Assembly (NCBI RefSeq): GCF_002217755.1
Contig: NZ_BCFL01000026.1
Location: forward strand, 310,001 to 374,000
Direction: 5' to 3'
DNA length: 64,000 nt
Source: Streptomyces hyaluromycini
GTDB lineage: Bacteria; Actinomycetota; Actinomycetes; Streptomycetales; Streptomycetaceae
The position numbers and the translations under genes are program-made. A model generated the notes under the pieces. That model was not told the origin of the DNA and ran no database searches. It was given only the letters and a program-made list of their open reading frames with translations. Positions within the stretch are counted from its first letter, which is position 1; the number at the start of each line of letters is the position of its first letter. Below, piece after piece: positions 9,344-64,000 of the stretch.

Positions 9344-11818
9344 ATGGATTCTCCGCAAGAAGACCGAGAAGACTTCGACGTGCCGACCGCCGTGGGGCCG
9401 CACGACCTCCTGGACGCCTCCAGCGACGCTGCGGCGGTGCTGTCGGCCGAGGGCGACGTGATCGGCTGGACCCGTGGCGCCGAGACCCTGCTCGGCCGTC
9501 CGGCCGCCGCGGTGCTGGGCCGCCCCGCGGCGCGGCTGCTCGCCATGCGCGTCGACCCGGCCCGTGCCGCCGGTGTCGCCGAGCGCTGCCGCTCCGGCAT
9601 GGGATGGAGCGGGCTCGTCCCGGTACGGCACCACGACGGCCGCAGTGTCGTCGTCGACCTGCGGGTCTCCGCGGCCTTCCGGATCGCCGGCGAGGAGTGC
9701 TTCCTGCTCTCGGCGCGAGAGCAGCGCCCGCAGTGGACGGTGGGCCAGTCCGTCCTCGACGGGTTCCTCACCCGCTCACCGATCGGCATGGCCGTGATGG
9801 ACCTGGAGCTGCGGTACGTCTGGCTGAACGACACCCTGGAGCAGTTCGGCGGCGTCCCGCGCGAGCAGCGCCTGGGCCGCCGGCTGACAGAACTGCTGCC
9901 CGGGCTGCAGGGGACCACCATCGAAGGCCTGATGCGCAAGGTGCTGTCGACCCGGGAGCCGGTCACCGACTACGAGTACCTCGGCTGGAGCTGGTCCGAC
10001 CCGCACCGCCAGCGTGCCTATTCGACGTCGTTCTTCCCTCTCGTCGACCCCGAGGACTCCGTCACCGGCGTCTGCTACATGGTCTCGGACGTCACCGAAC
10101 GCTGGAACGCCCGCCAGTTGCTGTCACTGGTCAACGAGGCCGGCACCCGCATCGGCACCACCCTCGACGTGCTGCGCACCGCCCAGGAGCTGGCCGACTT
10201 CGCCGTTCCCCGCTTCGCCGACTTCGTCATCGTCGACCTCCTGGAGCCCGTCCTCGCCGAGGGGCACGGCGCCTGGCCGACCGACGCGGGTCCGGCGCCC
10301 GCCCGGCCGGCGATGCGGCGCGCCGCGCTGCGGACCGTCCGCGAGGGCAGCCCCGAGGCCGTGGCGCGGATCGGCGACCAGGTCGACTTCCTGCCCCCGC
10401 CGCACGGCGTCGACCTGCTCATCAACGGCGAGCCGGTCCTCATCCCCGAACTCGACGCCGAGGACCGCCTGTGGGTCACCCACCAGCCCGCGCGGACGGC
10501 CCGTATCCGGGAGTTCGGACTGCACACCCTCATCTCGGTGCCGATGCGGGCGCGCAACACCGTCCTGGGCCTCACCACGTTCGCCCGCTCGCTCAACCCG
10601 GTCTCCTTCGGACCCGACGACGTCCTGCTCGCCCGGGAACTGGTCGCCCGTGCCGCGCTCTGCGTCGACAACGCCCGCCGCTACACCAGGGAGCACACGG
10701 CGGCCGTCACCCTCCAACGCAGCCTGCTGCCCCAGGTTCTGGCCGGCGGCACGGCCCTGGACGTGGCCTCCTCCTACCTGCCGGCGGACGCGACGGACGG
10801 CGTCGGCGGCGACTGGTTCGACGTGATCCCGCTGTCCGGTGCCCGGGTCGCCCTGGTCGTCGGCGACGTGGTCGGCCACGGCCTCACCGCGGCGGCGAGC
10901 ATGGGCCGGCTGCGCACCGCCGTGCAGACCCTCGCCGACATGGACATGCCCCCCGACGAGCTCCTCGCCCACCTCGACGACCTCGTGCTGCGGCTGGGCG
11001 ACGAGGAGAACGCGGGCGCGGTCGCGGAGGGCAGCACGGACACGTTCGTCGGGGCGACCTGCCTGTACGCCGTCTACGACCCGGTGACCCGGCGGTGCGC
11101 GATGGCCCGGGCCGGACACCCGCCGCCGGTCGTCGTCTCGCCCGACGGGCACGTGCACTTTCCCGAGATCCCCGCCGGACCGCCGCTCGGACTCGGCGGC
11201 ATGGCCTTCGAGGCCACCGAGATCGAACTCGCCGAGGGCAGTCTGTTCGGCCTCTACACCGACGGCCTCATCGAAGGCGCCGACCAGGACGTCGAGCTGG
11301 GCATGGCCCGCCTCCGGGGCGCGCTGGCCAGCCCCGGTGCCGACCTCGACACGCTGTGCACGTCGGCCGTGCACCAGCTGCTCCCCGTTCCCCAGCCCGA
11401 CGACATCGCCCTGCTGCTGGCCCGCACCCACGCCCTGGGCGCCGGCCACGTCGTCTCCTGGGAGGTGCCCGTCGACCCGTCCGCCGTCGCCGACGTCCGG
11501 GCCGAGGCGGTACGCCAGGTGACCGCGTGGGGCTACGACGAGCTGGCGACGACCACCGAACTCATCGTCAGCGAACTGGTCACCAACGCCATCCGCTATG
11601 CCGAACCCCCCATCCGGCTACGGCTGTTGCGCGACTCCCGGCTGACCTGCGAGGTCGCCGACGGCAGCAGCACCGCACCCCGGCTGCGGCATGCCCGCAG
11701 CACCGACGAGGGCGGCCGCGGTCTCTTCCTCGTCGCCCAGCTCGCCCATCGCTGGGGCGCCCGCTACACCGGAGAAGGCAAGATCATCTGGGCCGAGCAG
11801 GAGATCCCCGGGGTGTGA
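9344..11818 (+). CDS. PAS-PAS-GAF-SpoIIE phosphatase with C-terminal anti-sigma-type ATPase domain
   Basis: An 824-residue protein: PAS at about 20-125, second PAS at about 135-255 (ending VSDVTERW), GAF about 265-440, SpoIIE/PP2C about 455-690 (GGDWFDVIPL, GDVVGHG, RAGHPPPVV, LYTDGLIEG, PDDIALLLAR), then a HATPase_c domain about 700-820 with TTELIVSELVTNAIRYA and DEGGRGLFLV. The last domain is the RsbW-like serine kinase/anti-sigma fold, so kinase and phosphatase for partner switching are joined in one chain. The phosphatase half is about the same layout as the divergent neighbour. Start ATG 9344 has AGGA nine bases before it. The target anti-anti-sigma factor is not encoded here. Confidence 0.9.
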   Translation: MDSPQEDREDFDVPTAVGPHDLLDASSDAAAVLSAEGDVIGWTRGAETLLGRPAAAVLGRPAARLLAMRVDPARAAGVAERCRSGMGWSGLVPVRHHDGRSVVVDLRVSAAFRIAGEECFLLSAREQRPQWTVGQSVLDGFLTRSPIGMAVMDLELRYVWLNDTLEQFGGVPREQRLGRRLTELLPGLQGTTIEGLMRKVLSTREPVTDYEYLGWSWSDPHRQRAYSTSFFPLVDPEDSVTGVCYMVSDVTERWNARQLLSLVNEAGTRIGTTLDVLRTAQELADFAVPRFADFVIVDLLEPVLAEGHGAWPTDAGPAPARPAMRRAALRTVREGSPEAVARIGDQVDFLPPPHGVDLLINGEPVLIPELDAEDRLWVTHQPARTARIREFGLHTLISVPMRARNTVLGLTTFARSLNPVSFGPDDVLLARELVARAALCVDNARRYTREHTAAVTLQRSLLPQVLAGGTALDVASSYLPADATDGVGGDWFDVIPLSGARVALVVGDVVGHGLTAAASMGRLRTAVQTLADMDMPPDELLAHLDDLVLRLGDEENAGAVAEGSTDTFVGATCLYAVYDPVTRRCAMARAGHPPPVVVSPDGHVHFPEIPAGPPLGLGGMAFEATEIELAEGSLFGLYTDGLIEGADQDVELGMARLRGALASPGADLDTLCTSAVHQLLPVPQPDDIALLLARTHALGAGHVVSWEVPVDPSAVADVRAEAVRQVTAWGYDELATTTELIVSELVTNAIRYAEPPIRLRLLRDSRLTCEVADGSSTAPRLRHARSTDEGGRGLFLVAQLAHRWGARYTGEGKIIWAEQEIPGV

Positions 11819-49815: not shown

Positions 49816-51024
49816 CTACGGGGTCTCTGTCGTGCGCCGCGGGTTCTGCCTGAGCGCGTAGAGCGCGATGCAGAGTTCGGCGATCCCGTGCGGCTCGGAG
49901 GTCGAACGGCCGGTGTACTCGGTGATCCGGCGGAAGCGCTGGCGCACGGTGTTGGGGTGGCAGTACATGCGGCGGGCGGTCTCCTCGGTCGAGCCGCCGC
50001 AGGCCAGCCAGGTCTCCAGGGTGTCGAGCAGGACGTCCCGTTCGGCCTGCTGGAGGGTGTCGAGCGGGCCGAAGACGTTGCGGGCCAGGCGCCGGCTGAT
50101 CTCCGGCGCGGCCGCGGCGGCGACCGCCACCAGGCAGTCGTCGAACACGGTGACGGCGCAGCCGCCCGCGCGTCCGCCCTGCATGGCGGTCTTCGCGTAC
50201 CAGAGGCTGGTGCCGGTGTCGTACAGGTCCTCGTACGGCGGGCTGACGCCGGTCCTGCTGACCGCCTCGCCCTCCAGCACCTCGACGAGCTGGTCGTACT
50301 GCCGGTCCGTGCCGAGCTGGACGATGCCGACGTGGGTGTCCGGACGCAGATGCCAGACCGAGTGGATACCGCTTCTGCGCAGGGCCTGTTCGGTCCTCGC
50401 CAGCGGGTGGCGGCCGAACGACGACACCTCCGCCGCCACCACCGCGAAGCGGCCGTAGCGCGGCATGCGCAGCACGTCGATGGCGGCCAGCAGCGTGCCG
50501 GCGTCGAGGCTGCGGTTGGTGAGGAGGGCTTCGAGCAGCGCGGAGCGCTCCTGCTCGGCGTTGCGGAGCAGTTCGGTCGTGGCCTCGCGGTGCCCGGCGA
50601 TGGTCTCCTCGATCAACCGGTCCTGCACGGCCCAGATCGAGGACACCGCGGTGACCAGGCCTTCGTGGTCGACCAGTCCGGTCTCGGCCGCCTCCGCGAT
50701 CAGCAGCTCCCAGATGAACCTGATGCCCACGCGGTAGCTCGCGATCAGCGTGGTCTCCGGCACGTTCTGCCGGGCGCGTCTGCGTCCCGTGTCGGCGCCG
50801 AGCGAGGGGTCGAGCGGGGCCTGCCCGGCGAGCGCCCGCAGCACGTTGCGCAGCTCCACGCGGCACGACTCGCGCAGTTCAGCCAGCGGAACGCAGTTCC
50901 CGCCGTGGTCGCTGGCCTCGGACCGGATGCGCTCGGCCATGGCGTCGCCGAGTTCGTCCGCCCGCTCCAGGAGACCGGCCACGAGCTTGGCGAGACCGTC
51001 GGCGGGTCCGTCCGTCACCTTCAC
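49816..51024 (-). CDS. PucR/CdaR-type transcriptional regulator
   Basis: A 402-residue regulator. The central GGDEF-like portion (about 190-290) and the C-terminal PucR helix-turn-helix ([41 protein letters not shown]) are characteristic, as is the N-terminal RsbRD-like helical domain ([23 protein letters not shown]). Start is GTG 51024. It is divergent from an aldehyde dehydrogenase gene 232 bases away, and a palindrome overlaps that promoter, so it probably controls the dehydrogenase. Confidence 0.86.
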
Positions 51025-51256: not shown

Positions 51257-52720
51257 ATGTACGGCAACGACGGGACGGCCCGGCACTGGATAGACGGGCA
51301 GTGGCGGGACTCGGCCGCCGTCTCCGAGTCGGTCAATCCGGCCGACGGCGAGGTCGTGGGGGAGTACGCGGACGGCGGGCGCGCGGAAGCGGTGGCGGCC
51401 GTGGCCGCGGCCCGCCGCGCCTTCGACTCGACCGCCTGGTCCACGGACCGGGACCTGCGCCGCACGGTGCTCACCGAGCTGGCGGCCGCCTTCGACACCC
51501 ATGCCGAGGAACTGGCCCGGACCCTCACCGCGGAGAACGGCAAACTGCTCCGCGAGTCCCGGCTGGAGGCACGTTTCGCGACCGGCGCGCTGAGATACGC
51601 GATCGCCGACCTGACCACCGACACGGGATCGTTCGCGCAGACCGACCGGCACATCTGGTTCAGCAGCCTGCGCGAGCCCCTGGGCGTCGTGGCGATCATC
51701 GTGCCGTGGGAGTCGCCGATCGCGCTGTTCCTGCGTTCGCTCGGCCCCGCCCTGGCCGCGGGCAACGCCGTGGCGGTGAAGCTGCCGGGGCAGACGGCAC
51801 AGACCAACGCGCTGATGGCGCGCATCATCTCCGAGGTGCCCTCGCTTCCCGCCGGGGTGGTCAACATGTTCACCGAGTCCGGCAACACCGGGTCCCCGTT
51901 CCTGGTCGCCTCGTCCGAGGTGGACGCGGTCAGCTACACCGGCAGCACCGCCATCGGCCGGCTGGTGGTCGCCACCGGCGCGGTCACCCTGAAGCGGATG
52001 AACATGGCGCTGGGCGGCAAGACCCCCATGATCCTCTTCGCGGACGCCGACCTCGACCACGCCCTGCCCCTGCTGACGCTGGGCGTCACCCTGGGCGCCG
52101 GTCAGTTCTGCATGGCCGGCAGCCGCATCCTCGTCCACCGCTCCATCGCCGACCAGGTCCGCGAACGGCTGGGAGCCGCCCTGGAGTCGGTCGTCGTCGG
52201 TCCCGGGGACGACGAAGGCTCCCAGATGGGCCCGCTCGTCGACCGCAACGCCGTGTGCCGGGTCGACGCCCTCGTCGAGGAGTCCCTGGAACAGGGCGGC
52301 AAGGCCGTCGTGCGCGGCGGACCGGTCACCGAAGGGCCGCTCGCCGCGGGTGCGTTCTACCGACCCAGCCTGATCGAGATCGCCGACCTCGACGCCACCC
52401 TGGTCCAGGAGGAGGTCTTCGGACCGGTCGCCACCTTCGAGGTCTTCGACGACGAGGCCGAGGCGGTGCACCGCGCCAACGCGACCGAGTTCGGCCTGGC
52501 GGCCGCCGTCTTCACCCGCGACGGCGACCGCGCCCGGCGGGTCGGCCGCGCGGTACGGGCGGGCACCGTCTGGACCAACTCCTGGTTCGTGCTGGACGAG
52601 GGCTTCCCCGAGGGCGGCTTCAAGCAGAGCGGCCTGGGCCGGCTGCGCGGACCCTTGTCCCTCGCCGAGTTCCAGGAGACCAAGACCTATGTCCACGTCG
52701 CCCTCCCCGAGACCGCCTGA
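51257..52720 (+). CDS. aldehyde dehydrogenase-family protein with altered active-site residues
   Basis: A 487-residue ALDH-superfamily protein with the nucleophile Cys285 in GQFCMAGSR and the NAD-fold segments TGSTAIGR and EVFGPVATFE. Two positions differ from nearly all ALDHs: the oxyanion-hole Asn of PWNFP is Glu152 (PWESP), and the general-base Glu of ELGGK is Ala251 (ALGGK); the ribose-contact Glu of KPAEQT is also lost (KLPGQT). Glu152 may have taken over the base role. ATG 51257 follows GGAGG by ten bases. It is divergent from a PucR regulator. Substrate unknown. Confidence 0.85.
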   Translation: MYGNDGTARHWIDGQWRDSAAVSESVNPADGEVVGEYADGGRAEAVAAVAAARRAFDSTAWSTDRDLRRTVLTELAAAFDTHAEELARTLTAENGKLLRESRLEARFATGALRYAIADLTTDTGSFAQTDRHIWFSSLREPLGVVAIIVPWESPIALFLRSLGPALAAGNAVAVKLPGQTAQTNALMARIISEVPSLPAGVVNMFTESGNTGSPFLVASSEVDAVSYTGSTAIGRLVVATGAVTLKRMNMALGGKTPMILFADADLDHALPLLTLGVTLGAGQFCMAGSRILVHRSIADQVRERLGAALESVVVGPGDDEGSQMGPLVDRNAVCRVDALVEESLEQGGKAVVRGGPVTEGPLAAGAFYRPSLIEIADLDATLVQEEVFGPVATFEVFDDEAEAVHRANATEFGLAAAVFTRDGDRARRVGRAVRAGTVWTNSWFVLDEGFPEGGFKQSGLGRLRGPLSLAEFQETKTYVHVALPETA

Positions 52721-52784: not shown

Positions 52785-55691
52785 TCAGCCGATGCTCACG
52801 TCGTCGACGTAGCCGCGGTACCCGCCCGTGGCCCCCGAGCGGTCGAAGCCGAGGAGCACCTTGCTGACCGCCTGCCCCGCCTTGACCGTGCCGAGGTCCA
52901 CGGTCACGTGGTTCCAGGTGTCCGGCGTCAGATGCCCGCACTGCTCGGCCGGATGGATGCCGTTGCCGGACCCGTCGGTGGCACCGGAGTCCCGCAGGGC
53001 ACTGCCGTCGGTGAAGACCAGGTCGACGGCGACGCAGGTGCTGTTGTCGGAACCGGCGTCCACCCATGGGGTGGTGGCGTTTGACTGCGGGAAGATCCAG
53101 TAGCTGAGCGTCGTGTCGCCGCGGACGGTGAGCGGCGCGCCGTTGAAGCCGTAGACCTGCAGGTAGGCGTGGTCGTACGAACCGCCGTTGGCGTAGCCCG
53201 AGTACATCAGCGCGGCGTCGCCCGTGTGGGCCTGTTCGCCGGTGCGCACGGCTGCCTGGGGCCCTGTGAGGCCGCAGCACAGGCCGGTGATGTTGTAGTT
53301 GCCGTCGCCGTGGGTGTCGGCGTTGTCGACGGTGTCGGTCCAGGTCGGCTGGGTCTGCCCGGTCTCGAAGCCGGTGGTGAGCGACGTGGTCGTCGCGGCC
53401 TTGGCCGGCTGGGACAACTGGTGCCGGACGGTGGCCTCGCTGGTGCCGGCCGGGGCGAGATCGATGGTCTCGCCGACGGTGGTGTGCAGCTTGATCGTGC
53501 TGCCCGAGAGGGTGCCCTTGTGGACGCCGTCCGCGTAGTACTCCACGGTCCTGCCGGGCCACGGGTTGGTGACCGTGACGTTCCCGCCGGACCGGCTGGT
53601 GAGCCGGACGTACTCGACGGCGTTGTCCCGGATGCTGCTGGAGACCAGGACGTTGCCGTAGGCGAGCAGGCCGCCGAACTTGGCGTTCGAGTCGGTGGGC
53701 CAGTTCGGGAAGACCTTGATGTCGTGCTGCACGGACTGGAGGAGCATCTCGTCGAGCCCCGACGTGGTGACGTTGAGGTTCTCGATGCCGCCGCCGTAGT
53801 GGTGCACCGCCATGTTCGGGTACGAGTGGGCGGTGGCCTCGGCGTGCAGCTCGTCCATCAGCGTGCTGGGGTTGTAGCCGACCATCGCCGCGGCCGCGTA
53901 CAGGGTGGCCGGGGAGTTGTCGCTGTGCCAGTTGTTGAGCTGCGCGACGGTGTTCCGGGCGGTCTGCAGCAGGTCGGCCGAACTGTTCAGCCCCACTTGC
54001 AGACCGGGGTAGACGGCCTGGACGGCGACGTCGTTGCCGTCACTGACCCAGCCGGAGCCCTCGGAGGTCTGCCGGAAGACGGTCTGGCCGTTCCGCGACA
54101 TCGTGGGCAGCGGCGCGAGGTTGCTGTCGATGTGCTGCCAGGCCGGGACGAGTGAGTCGTTGATGTGCAGGTCGCGGCTCATGTCGATCAGGCCCTGGAA
54201 CAGCAGGTGCACAAGGCCGAGCGAGAGGATGCTGTTGGTCTGCGGGTACACGCCGCCTTCCTGCGGCGCGTCGTTCTCGATGATGTACGTGCCCGTGGCC
54301 GCGTCCCAGGTCAGGTAGTGCTGCCAGAACAGCCCGACCTGCTGGAGGTAGGGAAGGACCTTGCGCGCGTAGGAGGCGCTGCGGGTGTACTCGTACTTCA
54401 TGACCATGTCGCTGGCGAAGTTCACGGCGTCGGACTTCTGGTTGTACAGGTCGTCGGCGGCGCTGGTGCCGTTGGGCGAGATGCCCACGGGGTAGAGCAC
54501 GCCCTGGTAGCCGGCGGCCGCGGCCTTCGCCCTGCCTCTGGGTATCCAGTCCAGGACCGGGTCGTCGTAGGAACCCATCTGGGCCACGTGGTTGGTCGAC
54601 AGCGCCGGGTAGAACGCCGCTTCGTAGTTGTAGTTGGCGTGGTAGTCGCCGTACCAGTTCATGTCGCCGGTGATCCAGTTGCCCCACAGGCCCGGGGCGT
54701 ACTTCCCGGCGCGGGAGACCGAGCCCAGCAGATAGAGCGAGCCGTACCAGCTCTTCTCCACGGCCTGGTCGGGGATCTGCACGAACGACCGGGACCAGTA
54801 CTCCCGCCACCAGGACTCGTGGTCCGCGTACAGCCTGGCCAGCGAGCCGCCGGTCAGCGTGGCGGCCGCCGCGTGGGCGACGGATTGGTAGCGGGGTGTG
54901 TCGTGGCTGCTCCGGATCGCCGCGGCGACGGTGTAGGTGACGCCAGGTTCGAGGGTGAGGCTGATCCGGTTGCCCGACACGCTCGCGGCGGTGCCGCGCA
55001 CGCTCGTCGCGATACGGGCGTGGGGGTTGCCCGGCGCGTCGGTGGTGCCGGCCTGCACGTCGGCGTCGAGTACCCCGTTCTCGCCCGACGTCGCCGGGGT
55101 CTTCCCGTGGCCGTCCTGCACGGTGACGGTCGCCTGCTGCGGGCGTGAGCCGGACAGCCGCAGGGTGGTGACGAACAGGTTCCGGGTCGCCGCGACCCAG
55201 CTCCTGGACGAGAGCTGCTCGTCGCCGAGCGTGTAGGTGCCCTCGACCTGCGCCTGCGCGATGTTCTGTACGACGCGATAACCGGAGCCGGCCAGGCCCG
55301 GGACGGACAGCACGATCCGGCCCAGCGGCTCGATGCCGTTGGTGGCGGTGGAGAAGAAGTCGTTCTTGCCGAGGTAGAAGGTCTGGTCGTCGACGGAACC
55401 GCCGACCGCGACGCCGACATCGCCGTTGCCCAGCAGCGGGGCGTCGACGGTCTCGCCGTTCGCCAGCGTGGTGGGCGGGGAGTCCCACACGCCCTGGAAC
55501 TGCGCCACGGTACGCAGCGCCTGGGCCGGCGTGGGATCACCGGCGCTCTGTGCGGCGGCGGACGAACCGCCCTGGACGGCGCTCAGGCCGACGGCCACGA
55601 GCGCCGCGGCCAGCAGCGTGCCGACCCGTCTCCGGTAACGAAGTGAGGATGTCACTGCGGTGTGACCTTTCTTCTCGTCCGGTCTTCTCAT
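52785..55691 (-). CDS. secreted GH95-like glycoside hydrolase with C-terminal beta-sandwich
   Basis: A 968-residue exported enzyme. Signal peptide: RYRRRVGTLLAAALVAVGLSAV. An N-terminal sandwich domain (PLLGNGDVGVAVGGSVDDQTFYLGKNDFF, about 70-98) resembles Glyco_hyd_65N_2, followed by an (alpha/alpha)6 barrel with GLWGNWITGDMNWYGDYHANYNYEAAFYPAL (Asn/Tyr-rich, like the GH95 active site) and HHYGGGIENL. The last ~200 residues look like a ConA-type module (HAYLQVYGFNGAPL, GYRGYVDDVS). GH95 includes alpha-L-fucosidases and galactosidases; this is a distant member. ATG 55691 overlaps the ROK stop (ATGA); GTG 55655 with AAAGG is the alternative. Confidence 0.75.
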   Translation of the reverse strand: MRRPDEKKGHTAVTSSLRYRRRVGTLLAAALVAVGLSAVQGGSSAAAQSAGDPTPAQALRTVAQFQGVWDSPPTTLANGETVDAPLLGNGDVGVAVGGSVDDQTFYLGKNDFFSTATNGIEPLGRIVLSVPGLAGSGYRVVQNIAQAQVEGTYTLGDEQLSSRSWVAATRNLFVTTLRLSGSRPQQATVTVQDGHGKTPATSGENGVLDADVQAGTTDAPGNPHARIATSVRGTAASVSGNRISLTLEPGVTYTVAAAIRSSHDTPRYQSVAHAAAATLTGGSLARLYADHESWWREYWSRSFVQIPDQAVEKSWYGSLYLLGSVSRAGKYAPGLWGNWITGDMNWYGDYHANYNYEAAFYPALSTNHVAQMGSYDDPVLDWIPRGRAKAAAAGYQGVLYPVGISPNGTSAADDLYNQKSDAVNFASDMVMKYEYTRSASYARKVLPYLQQVGLFWQHYLTWDAATGTYIIENDAPQEGGVYPQTNSILSLGLVHLLFQGLIDMSRDLHINDSLVPAWQHIDSNLAPLPTMSRNGQTVFRQTSEGSGWVSDGNDVAVQAVYPGLQVGLNSSADLLQTARNTVAQLNNWHSDNSPATLYAAAAMVGYNPSTLMDELHAEATAHSYPNMAVHHYGGGIENLNVTTSGLDEMLLQSVQHDIKVFPNWPTDSNAKFGGLLAYGNVLVSSSIRDNAVEYVRLTSRSGGNVTVTNPWPGRTVEYYADGVHKGTLSGSTIKLHTTVGETIDLAPAGTSEATVRHQLSQPAKAATTTSLTTGFETGQTQPTWTDTVDNADTHGDGNYNITGLCCGLTGPQAAVRTGEQAHTGDAALMYSGYANGGSYDHAYLQVYGFNGAPLTVRGDTTLSYWIFPQSNATTPWVDAGSDNSTCVAVDLVFTDGSALRDSGATDGSGNGIHPAEQCGHLTPDTWNHVTVDLGTVKAGQAVSKVLLGFDRSGATGGYRGYVDDVSIG

Positions 55692-56653
55692 CCGGTGTCC
55701 CGCCTTTGCCGAGCGGGTGTTTCCGAGCGGCCTGGTGCGGCCGCCCGGCCGTACGTCGTGGCCAGGTAGGCCGCGCCCAGCAGCGGGGCCCCGGCCGGTT
55801 GCCGCGCCGCGGTGACGACGAGCTGCCCGTCGCGGACCCCGCCCGCCTCGGCGAGCCCGGCCCGCAGCGGTTCGGCGACGAGGTCCCAGGCCCCCGCGAT
55901 GGCACCCCCGACCACGAGAACCGTCGGTTCGAAGGCCGCGACACACGGCCCGAGCACGCCGCCCAGCGCACGGAACGCCCCGGCGAACACACCGGCCGCG
56001 GCACGGTCCCCCTGCCGCGCCCGGCGGGCGATCTCCCTTACGTCCGGAGCCTGTTGGCCGGTGGACCGGGCGTAGGCCCGGCGCAGGGCACGTCTGGACA
56101 CCGTCTCCTCCAGCGGGGCGTCCGCGTACCGCAGGGCGTGGAGCCGCCCGTCCGGCGGGACCCCGGGCCCGTGCCGGACGATGCGGCCGTCGCGCAGGAA
56201 GCAGGAGCCCACCCCGGTTCCGAGGGTGATCCCGACGGCACTCCGGTGCCCGCGCGCCGCCCCGGCCCACCACTCGCCGAGGGCGAACGCGTCCGCGTCG
56301 TTCCAGAAGCTGACTCCCGAGGCGCCGGGCAGCGCCGACGTCAGCGCGGCCCGGAGATCGAACCCGCGCAGGGCGTCGAACTTGCCGACCCCCTCGTACC
56401 GGCCGACGCCCCGCGCGTAGTCGAAGGGACCTGGCAGCGCCACCGCCCACCGGGCCGGGCCCCGCACGGACAGCCGGGCGGCGCAGCGGACCAGGGCCGA
56501 CACGAAGTCCTCGGCACTGCCGTCACCGTCCACCGCCTCCCGGAACAACCGGTCCTCCCGCAGGGCGCGGCCTGCGACGTCCACGCTCGCCGCGGTCACA
56601 TGGGTGCCGCCGACCTCCAGCACCGGTACGACGGTCGCGTCGCCGGGGCTCAT
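55688..56653 (-). CDS. ROK-family sugar kinase
   Basis: A 321-residue ROK protein without a DNA-binding domain: VLEVGGTHVTAASVDV (ATP phosphate 1), FWNDADAFALGEWW with the catalytic Asp, LGTGVGSCFL (phosphate 2). The zinc-binding CxCGxxGCxE motif of many ROK kinases is missing. It phosphorylates a hexose released in the cytoplasm. The start overlaps the preceding gene by four bases (ATGA), and its stop overlaps the GH95-like gene start in the same way. Confidence 0.82.
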   Translation of the reverse strand: MSPGDATVVPVLEVGGTHVTAASVDVAGRALREDRLFREAVDGDGSAEDFVSALVRCAARLSVRGPARWAVALPGPFDYARGVGRYEGVGKFDALRGFDLRAALTSALPGASGVSFWNDADAFALGEWWAGAARGHRSAVGITLGTGVGSCFLRDGRIVRHGPGVPPDGRLHALRYADAPLEETVSRRALRRAYARSTGQQAPDVREIARRARQGDRAAAGVFAGAFRALGGVLGPCVAAFEPTVLVVGGAIAGAWDLVAEPLRAGLAEAGGVRDGQLVVTAARQPAGAPLLGAAYLATTYGRAAAPGRSETPARQRRDTG

Positions 56654-58353
56654 CGCACCAGCGCCTTGACGTACCGCACCGGCCCCGCGCCGAGGGCCCG
56701 CACCCGGTAGGCGCCGGCCGCGGCGGGCACGGTCAGGGTCTCGGCGTAGGCCAGCACCCGACGGTCCCCGCCGCTCGTCTCCAGCAGGATCCCGTCGCCC
56801 GCCACGACGTTGACGACATGGAAGCGGTGCTCCGTGTCGTCGTCCACGACGGCGTCCGGAGCCAGTTCGAGGCGCCGCACCTCGAAGAACATCTCCGGAA
56901 GACGCCCAATGACGTCCTCGCGCCAGCCCTCGCCCGAGCGCAGCGTCCGGGGTTCCTGGACCAGGTCCCTGACCACGGCCTCCCCGGACCGGGCGGGATC
57001 GAGGTTCTCGAAGGCGTGGCCCACATGGACCGGCCGCTGCCTGCCCGCGCCGTCCCTGCGCAGCCAGTCGTAGAAGCGAAGGCTGTACAGGTACGGCGTC
57101 GCGCTGATCTCCAGGACGACATTGCCCGCCCCGCTGCCGTGCGGGGTGCCGCCCGGGATGAGGAAGAGCTGGTGCCGGTCGGCGGGGAAGGTCTGCACAT
57201 AGCGCTCGATGTCGAACGGCACACCCTCGTGGACCGCCCGGTCCGCCTCCCGCCGGAAGGCCGCGAGGTCGGCGCCCTCGCGCAGCCCCAGGAACACCTG
57301 GCTGTCGGCTCCGCCAAGCATCATGTAGTAGGTCTCGTGCTGGGTGTACGGCCAGCCGAACACCCGCCGCATGTAGTCGGACTGCGGATGGCAGTGCACG
57401 GACAGGTTGCCGCCGCCGACGGTGTCGAGATAGTCGAATCGGATCGGGAACGAGGTGCCGAACATCGCGTGCACGGGTCCCCCGAGGACCTCCTCGGGGT
57501 GCAGCGCGACCAGCGCCTGCAGCGGGACCTCGACCCGCGGTCCGTCCGGCCTGCCGACGAGGATTCCGCTCTCCGGCGCGATGAGCTCGTAGCCCAGCGC
57601 GGTGTTGGCCGCCTCCCGGTTGAAGCCGAGCCGTTCCTGGGCCCAGTGCCCGCCCCACGAGGTGGTGTTGAAGGTGGGGCGGGTACGGAAGGGCCGGCGG
57701 GCCAGGCCGGCCAGGGCGTCGCGCAGGGCGGTGCCGTCCAGCCAGGCCGGAGCCTGCGGGTCCTGGACGTCCAGCCACAGGTCGACGCCGGCGAGGAGGG
57801 TGTCGCGATGCCGGTCCAGGACGGGCCAGTCGATGTAGAACAGCCGGCGTGTCGTACCCGCCCCGGTACCGGCCGGCTGCCCCAGATTGCGGCCGCTCCC
57901 ACCGGTGATCCCGGCCTCGGCGTACCGCTTGGGCAGGTCGGCGTACCAGAGCCGGTCGTGCGGCACCAGCGCCGCCCCCGGCCCCACGACGACGGTGACC
58001 GCGTCGGCGGCGGCCCCGGGCTCAGGCAGCCCGGTGAAGAAGTCGGCGAGGCCCGCCCGGGACAACGGAGCGAAGTCCGGGTCGTCCTCCAGTACGGCGG
58101 ACCCGGTGCGGGCGAGGATGTCCGGCCAGGGCGCGAAGTGCTCCCGCATGTCGATCTGCTTCACCGCGACACCGCGGGCGGCCAGCGCCTCGCTGATCCC
58201 GGCGGCGACCGTCTCCCAGTCGACGGCCACCGGGCCGTCCACGGCGAGGACCGGCCCGGGAGCGAATCCGGCGAGCGCGTCGCGGTATCCGGTGCCGACC
58301 TCCCCGGTGATGCGGTGGCAGGGTTCGGCTTCGTAGCCACGGACTGCAGACAT
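56650..58353 (-). CDS. mannose-6-phosphate isomerase-like protein with N-terminal extension
   Basis: A 567-residue protein, larger than normal class I isomerases (about 390). The C-terminal two thirds carry zinc ligands and cupin motifs: SVHCHPQSDYM, TQHETYYMMLGG, FLIPGGTPHGSGAG. Residues 1-200 form a Rossmann/kinase-like region (VLAVDGPVAVDWETVAAGISEAL) in which a P-loop GKS/T is not present. A RLFYIDWPVLDRHRD segment joins the halves. It should interconvert a ketose and aldose phosphate; with the ROK kinase, mannose-6-P to fructose-6-P is the simplest reading. Overlaps the ROK gene by four bases. Confidence 0.75.
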   Translation of the reverse strand: MSAVRGYEAEPCHRITGEVGTGYRDALAGFAPGPVLAVDGPVAVDWETVAAGISEALAARGVAVKQIDMREHFAPWPDILARTGSAVLEDDPDFAPLSRAGLADFFTGLPEPGAAADAVTVVVGPGAALVPHDRLWYADLPKRYAEAGITGGSGRNLGQPAGTGAGTTRRLFYIDWPVLDRHRDTLLAGVDLWLDVQDPQAPAWLDGTALRDALAGLARRPFRTRPTFNTTSWGGHWAQERLGFNREAANTALGYELIAPESGILVGRPDGPRVEVPLQALVALHPEEVLGGPVHAMFGTSFPIRFDYLDTVGGGNLSVHCHPQSDYMRRVFGWPYTQHETYYMMLGGADSQVFLGLREGADLAAFRREADRAVHEGVPFDIERYVQTFPADRHQLFLIPGGTPHGSGAGNVVLEISATPYLYSLRFYDWLRRDGAGRQRPVHVGHAFENLDPARSGEAVVRDLVQEPRTLRSGEGWREDVIGRLPEMFFEVRRLELAPDAVVDDDTEHRFHVVNVVAGDGILLETSGGDRRVLAYAETLTVPAAAGAYRVRALGAGPVRYVKALVR

Positions 58354-58401
58354 GGCGATGTCGGCCTTTCTGTGGGGCCTTGGCGGTGCGGCTCGGGCTG
58401 T

Positions 58402-61056
58402 TCAGGCGACCGGGCCGAGATGGGTGAGCGTCCCGATGCCCTCGACGGACAGGGCGGCGGGCAGTCCTGCGATGCGGCCGGTCCCGAACGCCGGGTTGAT
58501 GTCGAACAGGGCCGAGAGCACCGCCTCGGCTCCGGCCGCGCCCGCGATGTTGTCACGGGTCGCGGTGCCGCGTTCGGCCACGCGGGCCCGGTGCCGGCCG
58601 TCCGGCCCGGTGACGATCTCCATGGCCTGTCCCCACAGCCCGCCCGAGGCGGCGGACGGGAGGTCGCGCAGCAGAGCGACCGCCCGGTCGCGATGGCCGA
58701 GCAGCGCCAGGCCATGGGCGGTGACGCCGGGCCAGGCGGCGAAGGCACCGGCCGCGCCGTGGTCGGGACGGTCGGAGGCGGCGGCGATCGGATCGTCGGG
58801 ACTCAGCGCCCGCATCCAACCGCCCACCAGCAGACGTCCGGTGACGAAGTCGGCCATCTCCCGCCGGGTCCGGTCCGGGAGTTCGCGGTGCAGGGCGGAG
58901 GCGACCAGACCGAAGTCCAGACAGTGCCCGATCGTGTCGGTCCCGTCCGGGCGGAGGATCCGCCAGCGTCCCGACCCGGCGTACAGGTCCAGCAGCGCCT
59001 CGGCCAGCCGACCGGCCTCGGCCTCGGCCCGCTCGGCGTCCTCGTGCCGGCCGAGCAGCCGGTACAGACCGGCCAGCGAACGCGTCGAGGCGACGTACGC
59101 GGCGTTGAAGGAGGCGACGACACCGGTGTAGGTGGGCACACACTCCAGCAGCTGCCACGGATCGTCCCCGAAGTCGGCGAGCACGCCCCCGGTGGCCGCG
59201 GCACGCCTGTCCCGCCACCCGAACCCGAGCCGCTCCAGGTGCCCGAGGACGGTCGTGCCGCCGGGCGTCTCGTCCAGGAAGGCGAGGTCGCCGGTGACGC
59301 AGACGTAGTGCTCGACGAGCCGGAACAGGGCGTGGTCGTTGGCGCTGTAGGCGTTGCCCAGGGGCCCGCCGCCGAGGTTCTCGACCCCGAAGGAGTCACC
59401 GTACGGCCCGGCCAGCACCCGCAGCAGCCAGGAGCGCAGCCCGGCCGGTTCCAGCAGGGCGTACAGGCGGCTCCACTCGCAGTGGTCCCAGAAGTAGGTG
59501 GTGGTCGGCCCGAGCCGGGGGCCGCCGGTGAGGAACACCGGCTCGCCGGGCCGGATCCGGGTGGTGCGCAGGTACAGCGCCTGCAGGGCCCCCATGTAGT
59601 AGGTGCGCGCGAGGCCGGCGTCCTCGGTGGTGAAGGTGGGCAGGTGCCCGGAGAAGTCGGGATTGCCCGGGGTGAACATGGCGGCCCACAGCCGGCGCCA
59701 CCCGTCCCGGCCGGCCCGCGTCGTCGCCTCGAAGTCCTCCGCCGCGGCCCGGGCCTGTGCCGCGACCGTGCCGGCGTCGGTTCCGTACGCGCAGGCGATC
59801 CCGATGACCACGCTTCGGCCGGGCTCGATCCGGCAGGTCCAGGTCGCCCGGCGGCCGGCGCCCTCGGCCCGCAGCTCGCCGGCCGGCCCGGCGAAGGCGA
59901 AGGCGGCGCGGGCCGGCGACCGGGAGTCCGCGAAGGCGACCGTGCCGTCCTCGACGCGGGACATCCAGCGGCGCGACTCGGTCCAGTGCCGGGTACGGGC
60001 CGTCTCGGCACCGGCGAGGCGCAGCACGACCTCGTCCGCCGCCACCTGTATACGGACGTGGTGCCAGCTCCCGACGGCGAGTTCGGTGTCGGTGGGCTCC
60101 CGCTCCCCGGTGATGCCGAGCCACAGCCGGCCGTCCTCGACACCGATCTGGAGCGAGTCGGGGTGGTTGCCGTGGGTGAGGACGGTCCCGGACTGCCCCG
60201 CCGCGTCGAGCCGCAGCTCGAACTCGATCGTCAGGCCGGGGGAGAGCACGAAGGATTCCAGGTTCGTCTCGCCGTCGGGGGTCAACGCGATCGTCCCGTC
60301 GGCCCGCAGGATCGCACCGCCGTCGGCGCCCGTCACCCCGAGCCCGCGCACGGCCCCGGCCACGCCGGTCCGCGGCTCCGGCTCCTTGTCGTGGCTGACG
60401 TGTGCCGGGAGCGCGTCGTCCAGGAGCATCGGACCGTGGTCCTCGTCCCGTTGGATCCCCGGCACCCGGGGCCTGCCCAGCCTGAGCCGCCGTGGCGCCG
60501 GGGAGAGCAGGTAGTGCCGCCCGCCGCCGCCCGTGGTGGCCCGGATGCGCTCCAGCGCCATGAAGTCGTGGTGCATGCCGTGGTTCCACGGACCGTCGTA
60601 CAGCCAGCCGTATCCGACCTCCGAGTGGGCGGCCATCGCGAACAGGTCCTGGGCCAGTTCGACCGTCCTGGGCTCGTCGCTCTCGTTGGTGACCTCGATC
60701 CGCCACAGGAGCAGGTCCCGGGAGAGCGCCATGCGGGTGTCGGTGGTCAGCAGCAGCCCGTCCGGGCGGCGGTGTTCGCGCAGCACGCCCCACGGCTTCC
60801 AAAGGAAGCGCTGCGCGGCCGGGACCACGCCGTCCACCTGCAGCTCACCGGTGTGGTAGCCGAAGGTGAACGGCGGCGCGGCCAGCCAGGACAGCGAGGT
60901 CAGGTCGTGGTTGACGTGCGCCTGCCCCTGCTGGTTGCGCAGGGAGGGCAGGTGCGCGATCTCGCCCAGGCCGACCCAGTGCCCGGCGACGTCGTCCAGG
61001 TCCGGGACACCGGCCCGGCCGAGGGTCGCGGGTCCGGCGGCGGTCTGCGCGGTCAC
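58402..61056 (-). CDS. large (alpha/alpha)6-type glycoside hydrolase of unassigned family, with LamG-like insert
   Basis: An 884-residue protein without signal peptide. An N-terminal sandwich part (about 1-220; VNHDLTSLSWLAAPPFTFGYHTGEL) is followed at about 255-385 by an inserted concanavalin-like domain (PGLTIEFELRLDAAGQSGTVLTHG, VGSWHHVRIQV), then an (alpha/alpha)6 barrel with TTTYFWDHCEWSRLYALLEP, in which the WDxxxW resembles the catalytic Asp segment of clan GH-G (GH63/GH37-like), and GPLGNAYSANDHALFRLV. Family and substrate are not identifiable. GTG 61056 overlaps the permease stop (GTGA). Cytoplasmic location suggests hydrolysis of the imported oligosaccharide. Confidence 0.65.
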   Translation of the reverse strand: MTAQTAAGPATLGRAGVPDLDDVAGHWVGLGEIAHLPSLRNQQGQAHVNHDLTSLSWLAAPPFTFGYHTGELQVDGVVPAAQRFLWKPWGVLREHRRPDGLLLTTDTRMALSRDLLLWRIEVTNESDEPRTVELAQDLFAMAAHSEVGYGWLYDGPWNHGMHHDFMALERIRATTGGGGRHYLLSPAPRRLRLGRPRVPGIQRDEDHGPMLLDDALPAHVSHDKEPEPRTGVAGAVRGLGVTGADGGAILRADGTIALTPDGETNLESFVLSPGLTIEFELRLDAAGQSGTVLTHGNHPDSLQIGVEDGRLWLGITGEREPTDTELAVGSWHHVRIQVAADEVVLRLAGAETARTRHWTESRRWMSRVEDGTVAFADSRSPARAAFAFAGPAGELRAEGAGRRATWTCRIEPGRSVVIGIACAYGTDAGTVAAQARAAAEDFEATTRAGRDGWRRLWAAMFTPGNPDFSGHLPTFTTEDAGLARTYYMGALQALYLRTTRIRPGEPVFLTGGPRLGPTTTYFWDHCEWSRLYALLEPAGLRSWLLRVLAGPYGDSFGVENLGGGPLGNAYSANDHALFRLVEHYVCVTGDLAFLDETPGGTTVLGHLERLGFGWRDRRAAATGGVLADFGDDPWQLLECVPTYTGVVASFNAAYVASTRSLAGLYRLLGRHEDAERAEAEAGRLAEALLDLYAGSGRWRILRPDGTDTIGHCLDFGLVASALHRELPDRTRREMADFVTGRLLVGGWMRALSPDDPIAAASDRPDHGAAGAFAAWPGVTAHGLALLGHRDRAVALLRDLPSAASGGLWGQAMEIVTGPDGRHRARVAERGTATRDNIAGAAGAEAVLSALFDINPAFGTGRIAGLPAALSVEGIGTLTHLGPVA

Positions 61057-61961
61057 TTGGTCGCTCCCGAGGTGAGTCCGGCGATGAACTGCTTCTGCAG
61101 GGCGAGGTAGCCGGCCACGGGAACGACCGCCGCCAGCAGCATCACCCCGAACAACTGGGCGTAGTCGGTGGAGAACTGGCCGACCGACAGATAGATCCCG
61201 GTGGTGATCGTCTGGCCGTGCAGCGGGCCGAGGATGAACTGCGGGTTCATGAAGTCGTTCCAGATCCACAGCGACAGGAAGATCGCGACGGTCGCGGTGG
61301 CCGGGCGCAGCAGCGGCATCACGATCGTCCACCAGACCCGCAGCGGGCCGGCGCCGTCCACGGTCGCGGCCTCCACGATCTCGCCGGGGACCGACCGCAG
61401 GAAGCCGGAGTAGACGAACACCGCGAACGACAGGTAGCCGCCGCCGGCATTGGCCAGGATCAGTCCCGGATAGGTGTGGTCCAGGTGCAGGAAGGCGAGG
61501 ATGCGGATGGTCGGCAGCAGGACCACCGCGGGCGGGATCATCAGACCGGCGGCGAAGCCGGCCAGGACGATGCGGCGCAGCCGGGCCGAGCGCCGGGTCA
61601 GCCAGAAACCGAGCGCCGAGCCCAGCGGGATGACCAGCAGCACCGAGACGACGACGGTGACCACGGAGTTGGTCAGTCCGATCTGCACGATCCTGTCCGG
61701 CCGGGCCAGGGCGTCCGTCAAGTTGTGCGTGGTGGGCGGGGCGGGCGGGGCCGCCGGGTCGCGGATGATCTGGTCCTGTGTCTTGAAGGCGTTGACGAGG
61801 GTGAGATAGACGGGGCTGACGAAGGCCAGCGTGAGCAGGGCGGCTGCCGTGAGGTGCCCGCGCGTGACCCAGGCGCGGCGGCTCACGCGCGGCGCGGCCG
61901 CGACCGGTGGCATCGGTGCCCTCCTGAGGACCGCAGGCCGTTGAGACGTCGACGTGCTCAC
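61053..61961 (-). CDS. sugar ABC transporter permease (MalG/CUT1 type)
   Basis: A 302-residue inner-membrane permease with six hydrophobic segments (first LTAAALLTLAFVSPVYLTLVNAF). The EAA loop EAATVDGAGPLRVWWTIVMPLLRP at about 205-228 docks the ATPase. The start GTG 61961 overlaps the stop of the partner permease by four bases. No ATPase gene lies in this window; CUT1 systems of Streptomyces commonly share the MsiK ATPase encoded elsewhere. Confidence 0.92.
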   Translation of the reverse strand: MSTSTSQRPAVLRRAPMPPVAAAPRVSRRAWVTRGHLTAAALLTLAFVSPVYLTLVNAFKTQDQIIRDPAAPPAPPTTHNLTDALARPDRIVQIGLTNSVVTVVVSVLLVIPLGSALGFWLTRRSARLRRIVLAGFAAGLMIPPAVVLLPTIRILAFLHLDHTYPGLILANAGGGYLSFAVFVYSGFLRSVPGEIVEAATVDGAGPLRVWWTIVMPLLRPATATVAIFLSLWIWNDFMNPQFILGPLHGQTITTGIYLSVGQFSTDYAQLFGVMLLAAVVPVAGYLALQKQFIAGLTSGATK

Positions 61962-62863
61962 AGGTCCACCTCCCGGCGGCGCAGCAGGGCGGTCACCGAC
62001 AGCGCGATGACGACCGAGACGACGAGCAGCAGCATCGAGACGGCCGACGCGTAGCCGTACCGGTCGTCCGTGAAAGCGAGCTGGATGATGTAGAGAGCGG
62101 TCGACTGGGTGGAGTCGGCCGGGCCGCCCGAGGTGAGCACCGCGATGATGTCGTACAGCTTCAGCATCGTGATCAGCGAGATGGTGACGCTGATGGTGGT
62201 GCCCGGGGCGAGCATCGGGAACGTGATCCGCCGGAACCGCTGCCAGCGGCCGGCTCCGTCGACCATCGCGGCCTGGTACAGCTCGACGGGGATCGACTGG
62301 AGCGCGGCCAGATGGACGACGGTGGTGAATCCCGTCAGCACCCAGGCGGCCACGATCCCGACGGACAGCACGGCCAGGTGCGGGCTGCCCAGCCAGGTGA
62401 CCGGCCTGTCGATGACGCCGAGCGAGACCAGGACGTGGTTGAGGATGCCGTCCCGGGCCAGGATATAGCGCCAGACGTAGCCGACGATGACCCCGGACAG
62501 CACCTGGGGCAGGAACGCGACGGTGCGCATCATCCGGAAGCTCAGCGACGTCCTGTTGAGCAGCATCGCGAACCCGATGCCGGCGGCGTTGGCCACGACG
62601 GTCACCGCGCCGGCCAGCAGGAGGGTGAAGCCGAGACTTGCGGTCAGGGCACTGTCGTGCGCCATCTCCCGGTAGTTGGAGAGGCCGACGAAGTCGGCAC
62701 GGGCCAGCAGCGGGTTCTCGTTCGTGAGGCTCTTCCAGGCGCTCATCAGCACCGGAACGACGATGAACAGGACGTACAGGCCCAGCGCGGCCAGCGCGAC
62801 CGCGCTCAGGGCGGGGTCGCCACGGCGTGGGCGGACTCGAATGGACACGGCTCGGGTGGTCAT
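61958..62863 (-). CDS. sugar ABC transporter permease (MalF/CUT1 type)
   Basis: A 301-residue six-helix permease. First segment AALGLYVLFIVVPVLMSAW, and the EAA-like loop PVELYQAAMVDGAGRWQRFRRITFPML at about 195-222. It forms the membrane channel with the MalG-like protein downstream. Start ATG 62863 has GGAAGAG upstream, 66 bases after the binding-protein stop. Confidence 0.93.
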   Translation of the reverse strand: MTTRAVSIRVRPRRGDPALSAVALAALGLYVLFIVVPVLMSAWKSLTNENPLLARADFVGLSNYREMAHDSALTASLGFTLLLAGAVTVVANAAGIGFAMLLNRTSLSFRMMRTVAFLPQVLSGVIVGYVWRYILARDGILNHVLVSLGVIDRPVTWLGSPHLAVLSVGIVAAWVLTGFTTVVHLAALQSIPVELYQAAMVDGAGRWQRFRRITFPMLAPGTTISVTISLITMLKLYDIIAVLTSGGPADSTQSTALYIIQLAFTDDRYGYASAVSMLLLVVSVVIALSVTALLRRREVDL

Positions 62864-62929
62864 GGCTCTTCCCTCGGAGGAGATCTGCGGCGCCGCAGCC
62901 GGTGGTGCGGCCGGGGCCGGTGACGTGGC

Positions 62930-64000
62930 CTACTTGGTCGCCGAGTCCCAGGCGGCGTCCAGCTTGGCGAGCTGCCCGTCGACGTCGTCAGAGGAGAACA
63001 GCGCCTGACTGGCCGAGTAGAAGGCGTTGTTGAGCCCGGAGGGCATGGAGTCGTCGTTGGTGGCCCAGCCGAACGCGGAGACCTTCGTGTTCGGCTGGGT
63101 GACGTAGGAGTACGAGTCCTTGAAGACCTTGGTGACGTGCACGCCGTAGTCGTCCAGGGTCTTGCCCTTGAGCATCGGGAACGCGCCGTCACCCTCGATC
63201 AGGGCCTTGTAGTTGGCCGGGTCCAGCGACCAGGCCTCGGCGAACGCGGTCGCCTTGGCGGGGTCGGAGGTCTTGGCGCTGATCGCCATGGAGCCGCCCA
63301 CCGAGAACGGCACCACGAGCGAGCCGTCCTCGGTGGGGGTGAGGAAGGCGCCGTAGTCGTCGGCGTGGTCCTTGGGCACCGAACCGAGGAACCAGCTGCC
63401 CATCATGTACATCGCGGCCTTGCCGGACGTGAAGTTCGTGATGGAGTCGGCGTACTTGACCCCGAGGGCGCCGTCCTCGAAGTAGCCCTTCTTCACCATC
63501 GTCCGGTACTTGGTGGCTGCCGCCTTGACGTTGGCGTCGGTGAAGTGGACCTTGCCGGCGTAGCGTTCCTTCAGCCAGTTCGGGTCCTTCCCCAGCACAT
63601 CGGCGGAGAGGATGCCGACCAGCGGCATCGACGCCGCGAACGGATCGCCGCCGCCCAGCTCGACCGGGGTGACACCGGCGGCCTTGAGCTTGGCGCACAC
63701 GGCCATGAACTGCGACCACGTCTTCGGCGGCGCGGCGATGTGGGCCTTGGCGAACAGCTTCTTGTCGTAGAAGACCTCGGGGATGATCTGCGAGTTGGTC
63801 GGCGGGATGTACACCTTGCCCTGGTAGGCGTTGCCCAGGGGCAGCAGGAAGTTGGCGTTCACCCACTTCTGGTCGTACGGCCTGAGCAGCCCGGCCGTGG
63901 CGAACGTCGACGGGGTGATCGACTGGAGCAGATCCGGGAACTGCCCCGACGCCTGCAACTGCTTGGCGTACGCGTCCCGGTCCGTGCTCGGCGCGACGAT
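62930..64000 (-). CDS. sugar ABC transporter substrate-binding protein, C-terminal part
   Basis: About 356 residues, running off the right edge so the lipoprotein signal is not visible. Type 1 extracellular solute-binding fold: FPDLLQSITPSTFATAGLLRPY, PPTNSQIIPEVFYDKKLFAKAHI, PPKTWSQFMAVCAKLKAAGVTPV, NFTSGKAAMYMMGSW, which are CUT1 binding-protein features. It is the first visible gene of the operon with the two permeases and three or more catabolic genes. Ligand not predictable. Confidence 0.9.
   Translation of the reverse strand: MVAPSTDRDAYAKQLQASGQFPDLLQSITPSTFATAGLLRPYDQKWVNANFLLPLGNAYQGKVYIPPTNSQIIPEVFYDKKLFAKAHIAAPPKTWSQFMAVCAKLKAAGVTPVELGGGDPFAASMPLVGILSADVLGKDPNWLKERYAGKVHFTDANVKAAATKYRTMVKKGYFEDGALGVKYADSITNFTSGKAAMYMMGSWFLGSVPKDHADDYGAFLTPTEDGSLVVPFSVGGSMAISAKTSDPAKATAFAEAWSLDPANYKALIEGDGAFPMLKGKTLDDYGVHVTKVFKDSYSYVTQPNTKVSAFGWATNDDSMPSGLNNAFYSASQALFSSDDVDGQLAKLDAAWDSATK

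Follow-up and report, generated by a model that had tools for sequence, protein, structure and literature searches.

A predicted mannose-oligosaccharide operon of Streptomyces hyaluromycini with a candidate hydrolase outside assigned families

We analysed a stretch of 64,000 nt (the window; contig C25, 310001–374000; 72% GC) of the Streptomyces hyaluromycini genome (11.5 Mb, 51 contigs). Seven minus-strand genes at its end probably form a LacI-controlled operon for the catabolism of a mannose-containing oligosaccharide, in which a cytoplasmic enzyme that we call hydrolase A would release D-mannose; we give this reading a probability of roughly 60%. Uptake and breakdown of such an oligosaccharide are well supported by gene neighbourhood and protein family. 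In the order of steps that we propose, an exported enzyme resembling glycoside hydrolase family 95 (GH95) would trim the glycan extracellularly, and a solute-binding protein (SBP) and two permeases would import the oligosaccharide with the help of an ATPase encoded elsewhere. Hydrolase A, with a GH94-like fold and D628 as its acid, would then release D-mannose, which a ROK-family kinase would convert to mannose-6-phosphate and a phosphomannose isomerase (PMI) fusion protein to fructose-6-phosphate. The genes are as follows.

62930..64000, running beyond the window to about 64201, minus strand: lipoprotein SBP of a sugar ABC importer (Pfam SBP_bac_1, 6.1e-24; LTGC lipobox and start read in L009, our extract of this locus)
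61958..62863, minus strand: ABC permease 1 (Pfam BPD_transp_1, 2.1e-20)
61053..61961, minus strand: ABC permease 2 (Pfam BPD_transp_1, 6.1e-15; GTGA overlap with permease 1)
58402..61056, minus strand: hydrolase A, 884 amino acids (model pLDDT 90.6, closest folds GH94; GTGA overlap with permease 2)
56650..58353, minus strand: PMI fusion, 567 amino acids (unassigned N-terminal domain, residues ~1–213, and type I PMI, residues ~214–567; model pLDDT 91.7)
55688..56653, minus strand: ROK-family kinase, a proposed mannokinase (Pfam ROK, 6.3e-23; ATGA overlap with the PMI gene)
52785..55691 (start likelier at 55655), minus strand: exported GH95/DUF5703-like enzyme (Pfam GH95 catalytic domain, 7.5e-18; DUF5703_N, 1.6e-6)

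Seven genes in a conserved order

The open reading frame coordinates bear out an earlier sequence-only reading of this DNA, which had placed these seven genes on one strand in the order SBP, two permeases, hydrolase A, PMI fusion, ROK kinase and GH95-like enzyme. It also had four of the six junctions overlapping. Three four-base overlaps are secure: GTGA between the permeases and between permease 2 and hydrolase A, and ATGA between the PMI and ROK genes. Non-coding gaps of 66 nt and 48 nt separate the SBP gene from permease 1 and hydrolase A from the PMI fusion. The fourth overlap, an ATGA between the ROK and GH95-like genes, hangs on an uncertain start codon. It requires the ATG at 55691, which is feasible in locus L128 and not in L124; a GTG at 55655, 36 nt beyond that ATG, is the likelier start because AGAAAGG precedes it (in the window, L124 and L128) and the signal peptide opens directly there. 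ATG 55691 is thus probably not the start of the gene. The claim that the whole set is translated together exceeds the evidence; a single transcript is likely, as a prediction.

The identical seven-gene order recurs in L124 (S. xylophagus) and L128 (S. hokutonensis), with protein identities of 74–93%, which rules out a chance arrangement. All three secure overlaps are kept in L124, L125, L126 and L128, the loci of a close group (L124–L149, 26 loci) that carry the PMI gene, with GTGA in place of ATGA at the PMI/ROK junction of L126. Across the close group lacI, SBP, permeases and hydrolase A are mostly common, and a GH95-like gene is present in 21 of the 26 loci (weak in L127 and L146; L136 is cut). 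A simple gene caller overlooked some genes, including the ROK gene of the window, and gene presence was therefore also tested by tblastn. A promoter scan of the window found 0 (0.3 expected), and a terminator scan found 2 (2.1 expected), none of them on the strand that carries the operon; no RNA families or tRNAs were found in the window.

A phosphomannose isomerase fusion among mannosidase genes

Neither Pfam nor NCBIfam gave a match to the PMI fusion up to E 0.1. A profile search finds the type I PMI of Bacillus subtilis (1qwr) at 7e-14, and the predicted structure aligns to 1qwr_B over model residues 219–566 with Z 33.4 (309 aligned residues, root-mean-square deviation (r.m.s.d.) 2.4). Judged by the model, the PMI half clearly belongs to type I PMI, cupin fold included, in agreement with the isomerase fused to an extra domain that the sequence-only reading had described. 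The catalytic domains are alike. Among 48 rows H405 is invariant and H322 and E340 are nearly so (at least 90%), residues that we tentatively equate with PMI metal ligands. The window protein differs from 1qwr in its additional N-terminal ~213 residues and in having His at the Gln ligand of the LSxQxHP motif. The N-terminal domain had no sequence match (best E 0.074), the fold search barely covered residues 1–213, and the N terminus of the fusion in L068 aligned poorly. Its secondary structure gives a kinase-like impression, on which we rest no claim. The ordinary PMI model PF20511 matches one other gene in the S. hyaluromycini genome, on contig C18; the fusion therefore has the look of an additional, dedicated isomerase.

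At E 0.001 the fusion matches 40 of 199 same-genus genomes, own included; in 30 of these the match is strong (E 6.6e-88 or better). The 30 strong loci come from 29 other genomes; 29 loci were analysed, one on a 4.3-kb contig being left out. Mannosidases were counted as protein clusters inside the 20-kb stretch around each fusion, in many cases on the opposite strand, with Pfam run on one representative each. A GH38-type gene is present in 22 of the 29 loci, GH76 in 8 and GH92 in 2, and at least one of these in 24. This proximity makes mannose the likely product, and together with the PMI identity it supports the sugar-uptake operon with mannose as likely product that had been proposed from the sequence. 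Near PMI fusions accompanied by a sugar transporter of the major facilitator superfamily, we also saw a polysaccharide lyase family 8 gene in L050 and GH92 in L056 (both loci Pfam-scanned).

Distribution and neighbours of hydrolase A

Hydrolase A occurs in 4 of 295 genus genomes and in 24 of 296 class genomes (own included in both). Among the 20 loci from these searches the PMI fusion is present in 3 (L107, L108 and L123), an enolase-type dehydratase in 11, and both together in none. From a wider contig scan we took the best 80 of 151 confirmed hydrolase A loci, a few of which repeat the earlier 20. The PMI fusion is found by tblastn in 34 of these best 80, including L193 and L196 from Ignavibacteria and L156, a planctomycete metagenome-assembled genome, and the dehydratase cluster in 6, none of which carries the fusion. 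By rough arithmetic from the genus search, a random 20 kb would hold the fusion about 0.0004 of the time, or ~0.03 per 80 loci, an estimate that is not a p-value, as the loci are related. A different enolase-type gene follows hydrolase A in L132, and a further kind is present in L135 and L166, the last of which also carries the PMI fusion; L170 has the fusion with a short-chain dehydrogenase/reductase (SDR) and an SGL lactonase.

The SDR that adjoins the dehydratase in L116 matches the NCBIfam aldose dehydrogenase model below cut-off. It is closest to 3vtz and 2dtd/2dtx (glucose 1-dehydrogenase by Protein Data Bank (PDB) name), which we take to be Thermoplasma aldohexose dehydrogenases. AldT is reported to oxidise mannose (PMC6901390). 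In L150 (Mucilaginibacter), genes for an SDR, UxuA (D-mannonate dehydratase, Pfam 1.4e-51), a binding-protein-like protein and hydrolase A are consecutive. Mannosidase genes also stand close by. Two GH92 genes follow hydrolase A in each of L152 and L157 and one in L162, a GH38-like gene lies near it in L174, L178, L189 and L196, and a GH38-type gene lies further away in L163 (for L152, L162, L174 and L178, a single gene each was scanned with Pfam).

These neighbourhoods bear on an alternative that we regard as unlikely, although it deserves serious attention: an ordinary alpha-mannoside operon where the usual GH38 enzyme has given way to hydrolase A, with the same reaction and the same substrate. 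Elsewhere in the genus the module of PMI and ROK genes, accompanied by ABC genes and a gene of lacI type, does occur with GH38 and without hydrolase A. However, hydrolase A coexists with GH38-type or GH92 genes in all of the loci just named (L152, L157, L162, L163, L174, L178, L189 and L196), which suggests a different step.

In L159–L203 a DUF4185-like cluster is present in 28 of the 45 loci (one representative scanned), and genes for GDSL or other esterases repeatedly adjoin relatives of hydrolase A.

A predicted GH94-like fold without the phosphate-loop motif

For hydrolase A no Pfam family exceeds its cut-off (laminin-G alone matches, weakly) and NCBIfam gave none, a single-sequence search of PDB gave no match up to E 10, and no signal peptide was seen. 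Two same-genus relatives (L105:3441-6320 and L106:8095-10977) have a twin-arginine-like signal at their start and may be exported. The sequence-only reading had described a cytoplasmic (alpha/alpha)6 enzyme without a familiar family, which the Pfam and NCBIfam negatives and the predicted fold bear out, and the structure prediction that it had called for gave a confident model. In this model a beta-sandwich is joined to an (alpha/alpha)6 domain, with a possible laminin-G-like insert at residues ~270–360.

The closest folds are GH94 phosphorylases (8hob, E 3.3e-17); against 2cqs_A the model has Z 21.9 over 608 aligned residues, with an r.m.s.d. of 4.1 and 15% identity. A profile of 62 hydrolase A sequences likewise matches a chitobiose phosphorylase (2e-5) and, less strongly, cellobiose phosphorylases; the top matches among them fall in the N-terminal sandwich. 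Hydrolases score close behind GH94: the amylo-alpha-1,6-glucosidase 7vma (Z 20.7), a glucodextranase (19.4), a rhamnosidase (19.4), a GH65 alpha-glucosidase (19.1), GH116 (18.6) and GH63 (18.1), some of which we take to belong to families such as GH15, GH78 and GH65. The combination of beta-sandwich and (alpha/alpha)6 domain known from GH94 is thus present, but it is common to other families. None of the 50 fold matches listed is GH92, GH125 or GH47 by title, which is no evidence against those families.

GH94 models gave no match to hydrolase A up to E 0.1 or to its homologue in L116 up to 0.01, and PF17167 had no match in the S. hyaluromycini genome. For comparison, a family-level GH94 search gave weak matches only, in 8 of 61 genomes, and a phylum search found true GH94 in 7 of 119; seven GH94 proteins were aligned, with L215 excluded as incomplete. 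Alignment by hhalign (probability 85) places D628 of hydrolase A on the catalytic Asp of the GH94 DWND motif. All 62 hydrolase A rows share D628, E638, D714, D755, D765 and H766 without exception; from the alignments we propose D628 as the acid, and D765 is a possible base. The SWxTG loop, to which a phosphate role is ascribed, is invariant in all 7 GH94 rows, whereas its Thr and Gly are Ile and Ala in the window protein; they are not kept, and the stretch is variable, in the 21 of 62 hydrolase A rows printed. A shorter group of relatives has a Trp near the SWxTG position (DWxCSSxG and similar).

Because the closest solved folds are phosphorylases, hydrolysis has to be weighed against phosphorolysis. 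A phosphorylase would take a hexosyl-mannose disaccharide and phosphate to hexose-1-phosphate and mannose, the latter then passing to the ROK kinase and PMI. GH94 folds that match most of the chain, the profile matches, the position of D628 and the Trp of the shorter group all speak for this possibility. Against it, the missing Thr and Gly favour hydrolysis, without proof, the identity is 15%, and hydrolases of several families follow closely in fold score. We consider a phosphorylase distinctly unlikely. Hydrolase A shares with the cellobiose and chitobiose phosphorylases a beta-sandwich and (alpha/alpha)6 domain over ~600 residues and the catalytic Asp, and differs from them in overall sequence, in the laminin-G-like insert, in the SWxTG loop and in its linkage to mannose catabolism.

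From sequence, model and gene neighbourhood we infer, with good grounds, that hydrolase A is a mannose-releasing hydrolase outside assigned families. We hypothesize further, and more tentatively, at somewhat less than even odds, that it founds a new glycoside hydrolase family: GH94-fold enzymes that hydrolyse instead of phosphorolysing, are dedicated to mannose release, and are spread over Actinomycetota, Bacteroidota, Ignavibacteria and Planctomycetota, coupled either to a phosphorylating route (ROK kinase and PMI fusion) or to an oxidising one (SDR and dehydratase). If so, a widespread enzyme family that matched neither Pfam nor NCBIfam here would gain a function, a fold best known for phosphorylases would include a hydrolase, and soil actinomycetes would use a mannose-containing glycan through an enzyme that belongs to none of the customary mannosidase families.

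An exported GH95-like enzyme

The last gene of the operon matches the GH95 catalytic domain in Pfam at 65.1 bits (cut-off 27), and the GH95 C-terminal domain below cut-off; the catalytic match and the signal peptide confirm the exported GH95-like enzyme of the sequence-only reading. Its profile finds 2rdy (GH95) at 1.8e-25 and 9hmb (DUF5703) at 2e-25; a literature search for DUF5703 found no papers. N353, N355 and E478 are invariant in 18 GH95-like rows and align with the Asn pair (NxN) and the acid Glu of GH95. The enzyme resembles 2rdy, 4ufc and 9hmb in the Asn pair and acid Glu and may differ from them in the base Asp. No Asp aligns there in the 18 rows, a weak test, in that only one of three comparison rows from the same genome keeps it (L223 gave no usable row). 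As the base is not aligned, fucosidase activity is not to be assumed, and we dropped the fucosidase label.

A further difference lies in the C-terminal domain, which is common to a GH92 mannosidase: residues 821–967 match the domain resembling a carbohydrate-binding module (CBM) of the alpha-1,2-mannosidase NnGH92 (7nsn, 1.5e-13). The authors of the NnGH92 report could assign this domain to no CBM family and also noted it in clostridial GH38 enzymes (PMC10167667).

Transport, phosphorylation and control

By Pfam and NCBIfam the SBP and permeases resemble sugar ABC importers. None of the seven genes encodes an ATPase; a shared ATPase such as MsiK may serve sugar importers. The ROK protein is over the Pfam cut-off (82.1 against 22.9 bits) and retains the active-site Asn-Asp, and on reading its translation we did not find CxCGxxGC, which we take to be the zinc motif of the family. 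Glucokinase, beta-glucoside kinase and N-acetylmannosamine kinase models of NCBIfam all match below cut-off, with no single substrate favoured.

Among known systems, the xanthan cluster of Microbacterium sp. XT11 is reported to combine an ABC importer with GH38, a cytoplasmic mannose-releasing enzyme (PMC10881899). The window operon is alike in its importer and proposed cytoplasmic mannose release. Unlike that cluster, it has no GH9, PL8, GH3 or GH38 among its seven genes, and the cytoplasmic enzyme differs. The literature searches made did not turn up a homologue of the operon that has been characterised. The glycan could reasonably come from fungal mannan, one of several candidates. When a Streptomyces attacks yeast, genes for secreted GH92 and intracellular GH38 alpha-mannosidases are reported to be induced, though the single mannosidase assayed was inactive on the mannan used (PMC13170338). 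The two-step attack on an uncommon oligosaccharide that the sequence-only reading suggested is conjecture in both its parts.

A divergent lacI gene lies just beyond the window edge (L009:8369-9391). Between it and the SBP start (L009, ~8201), outside the window, stands the palindrome CGCGATAACGTTATCTCG, whose exact form occurs once in the 11.5-Mb genome. Allowing one mismatch adds two sites: the first is just downstream of lacI, and the second, on contig C20, has no recognised sugar gene alongside; a reversed control pattern has one site per strand in the same genome. The pattern GAYAACGTTRTC is found in 18 of the 26 close-group loci and in L104. A copy precedes the GH95-like gene of L137 by 153 nt, and in L129 a copy stands 100 nt ahead of a gene for an S15-type hydrolase. 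The operon is probably controlled by this LacI, to judge from the conserved palindrome. Two further copies were set aside: that in L162, at a distance of several hundred bases upstream of hydrolase A, was not counted as regulation, and that in L133 falls within the hydrolase A gene and looks like chance. A literature search with the operator letters gave, among the matches listed, none concerning Streptomyces by title. The gene that follows lacI (L009:9849-11756, outside the window) encodes a protein that carries an FHA domain at its N terminus and has a weak match to an FAD-binding domain; the one-mismatch operator lies between the two genes.

Weighing the mannose assignment

Several observations weigh against mannose release by hydrolase A in such an operon. 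GH94 phosphorylases act on beta-linkages, a chemistry that fits poorly with alpha-mannosidase neighbours. Within the genus, neither hydrolase A nor the GH95-like gene is present in any of the 29 PMI-fusion loci (tblastn, 1e-8), and 5 of the 29 have no GH38, GH76 or GH92 cluster: L042, L043 and L052 have a GH141-like and an enolase-type gene instead, and L057 and L068 have none of these genes. The PMI gene occurs in only 4 of the 26 close-group loci, each time with ROK, and the same-genus locus L104 has lacI, SBP, both permeases and hydrolase A (76–84%) with no PMI or ROK gene in 20 kb. The linked loci are related, some being near-duplicates (L152/L157 and L178/L189), and the counts are therefore not independent. 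On the oxidising side, the L116 dehydratase scores best to glucarate dehydratase, below every curated cut-off; the L150 SDR is not specifically AldT-like, its UxuA has no NCBIfam match at 1e-40, and the two could serve glucuronate.

That the released sugar is another hexose or a uronic acid instead of D-mannose, with shifted PMI and ROK specificity, is improbable: the ROK scores single out no substrate, the dehydratase found with the SDR is similar to glucarate dehydratase and UxuA works in glucuronate pathways too, but the same PMI fusion has GH38, GH76 and GH92 clusters around it, and the aldose-dehydrogenase-like SDR, UxuA, GH92 and GH38-like genes near the hydrolase A family suit mannose.

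Other genes in the window

Just downstream of the operon, a PucR-type regulator gene (49816-51024, minus strand) is divergent from an aldehyde dehydrogenase gene (51257-52720, plus strand). Elsewhere in the window are two divergent genes for SpoIIE-type phosphatases with PAS domains (7069-9060, minus strand; 9380-11818, plus strand).

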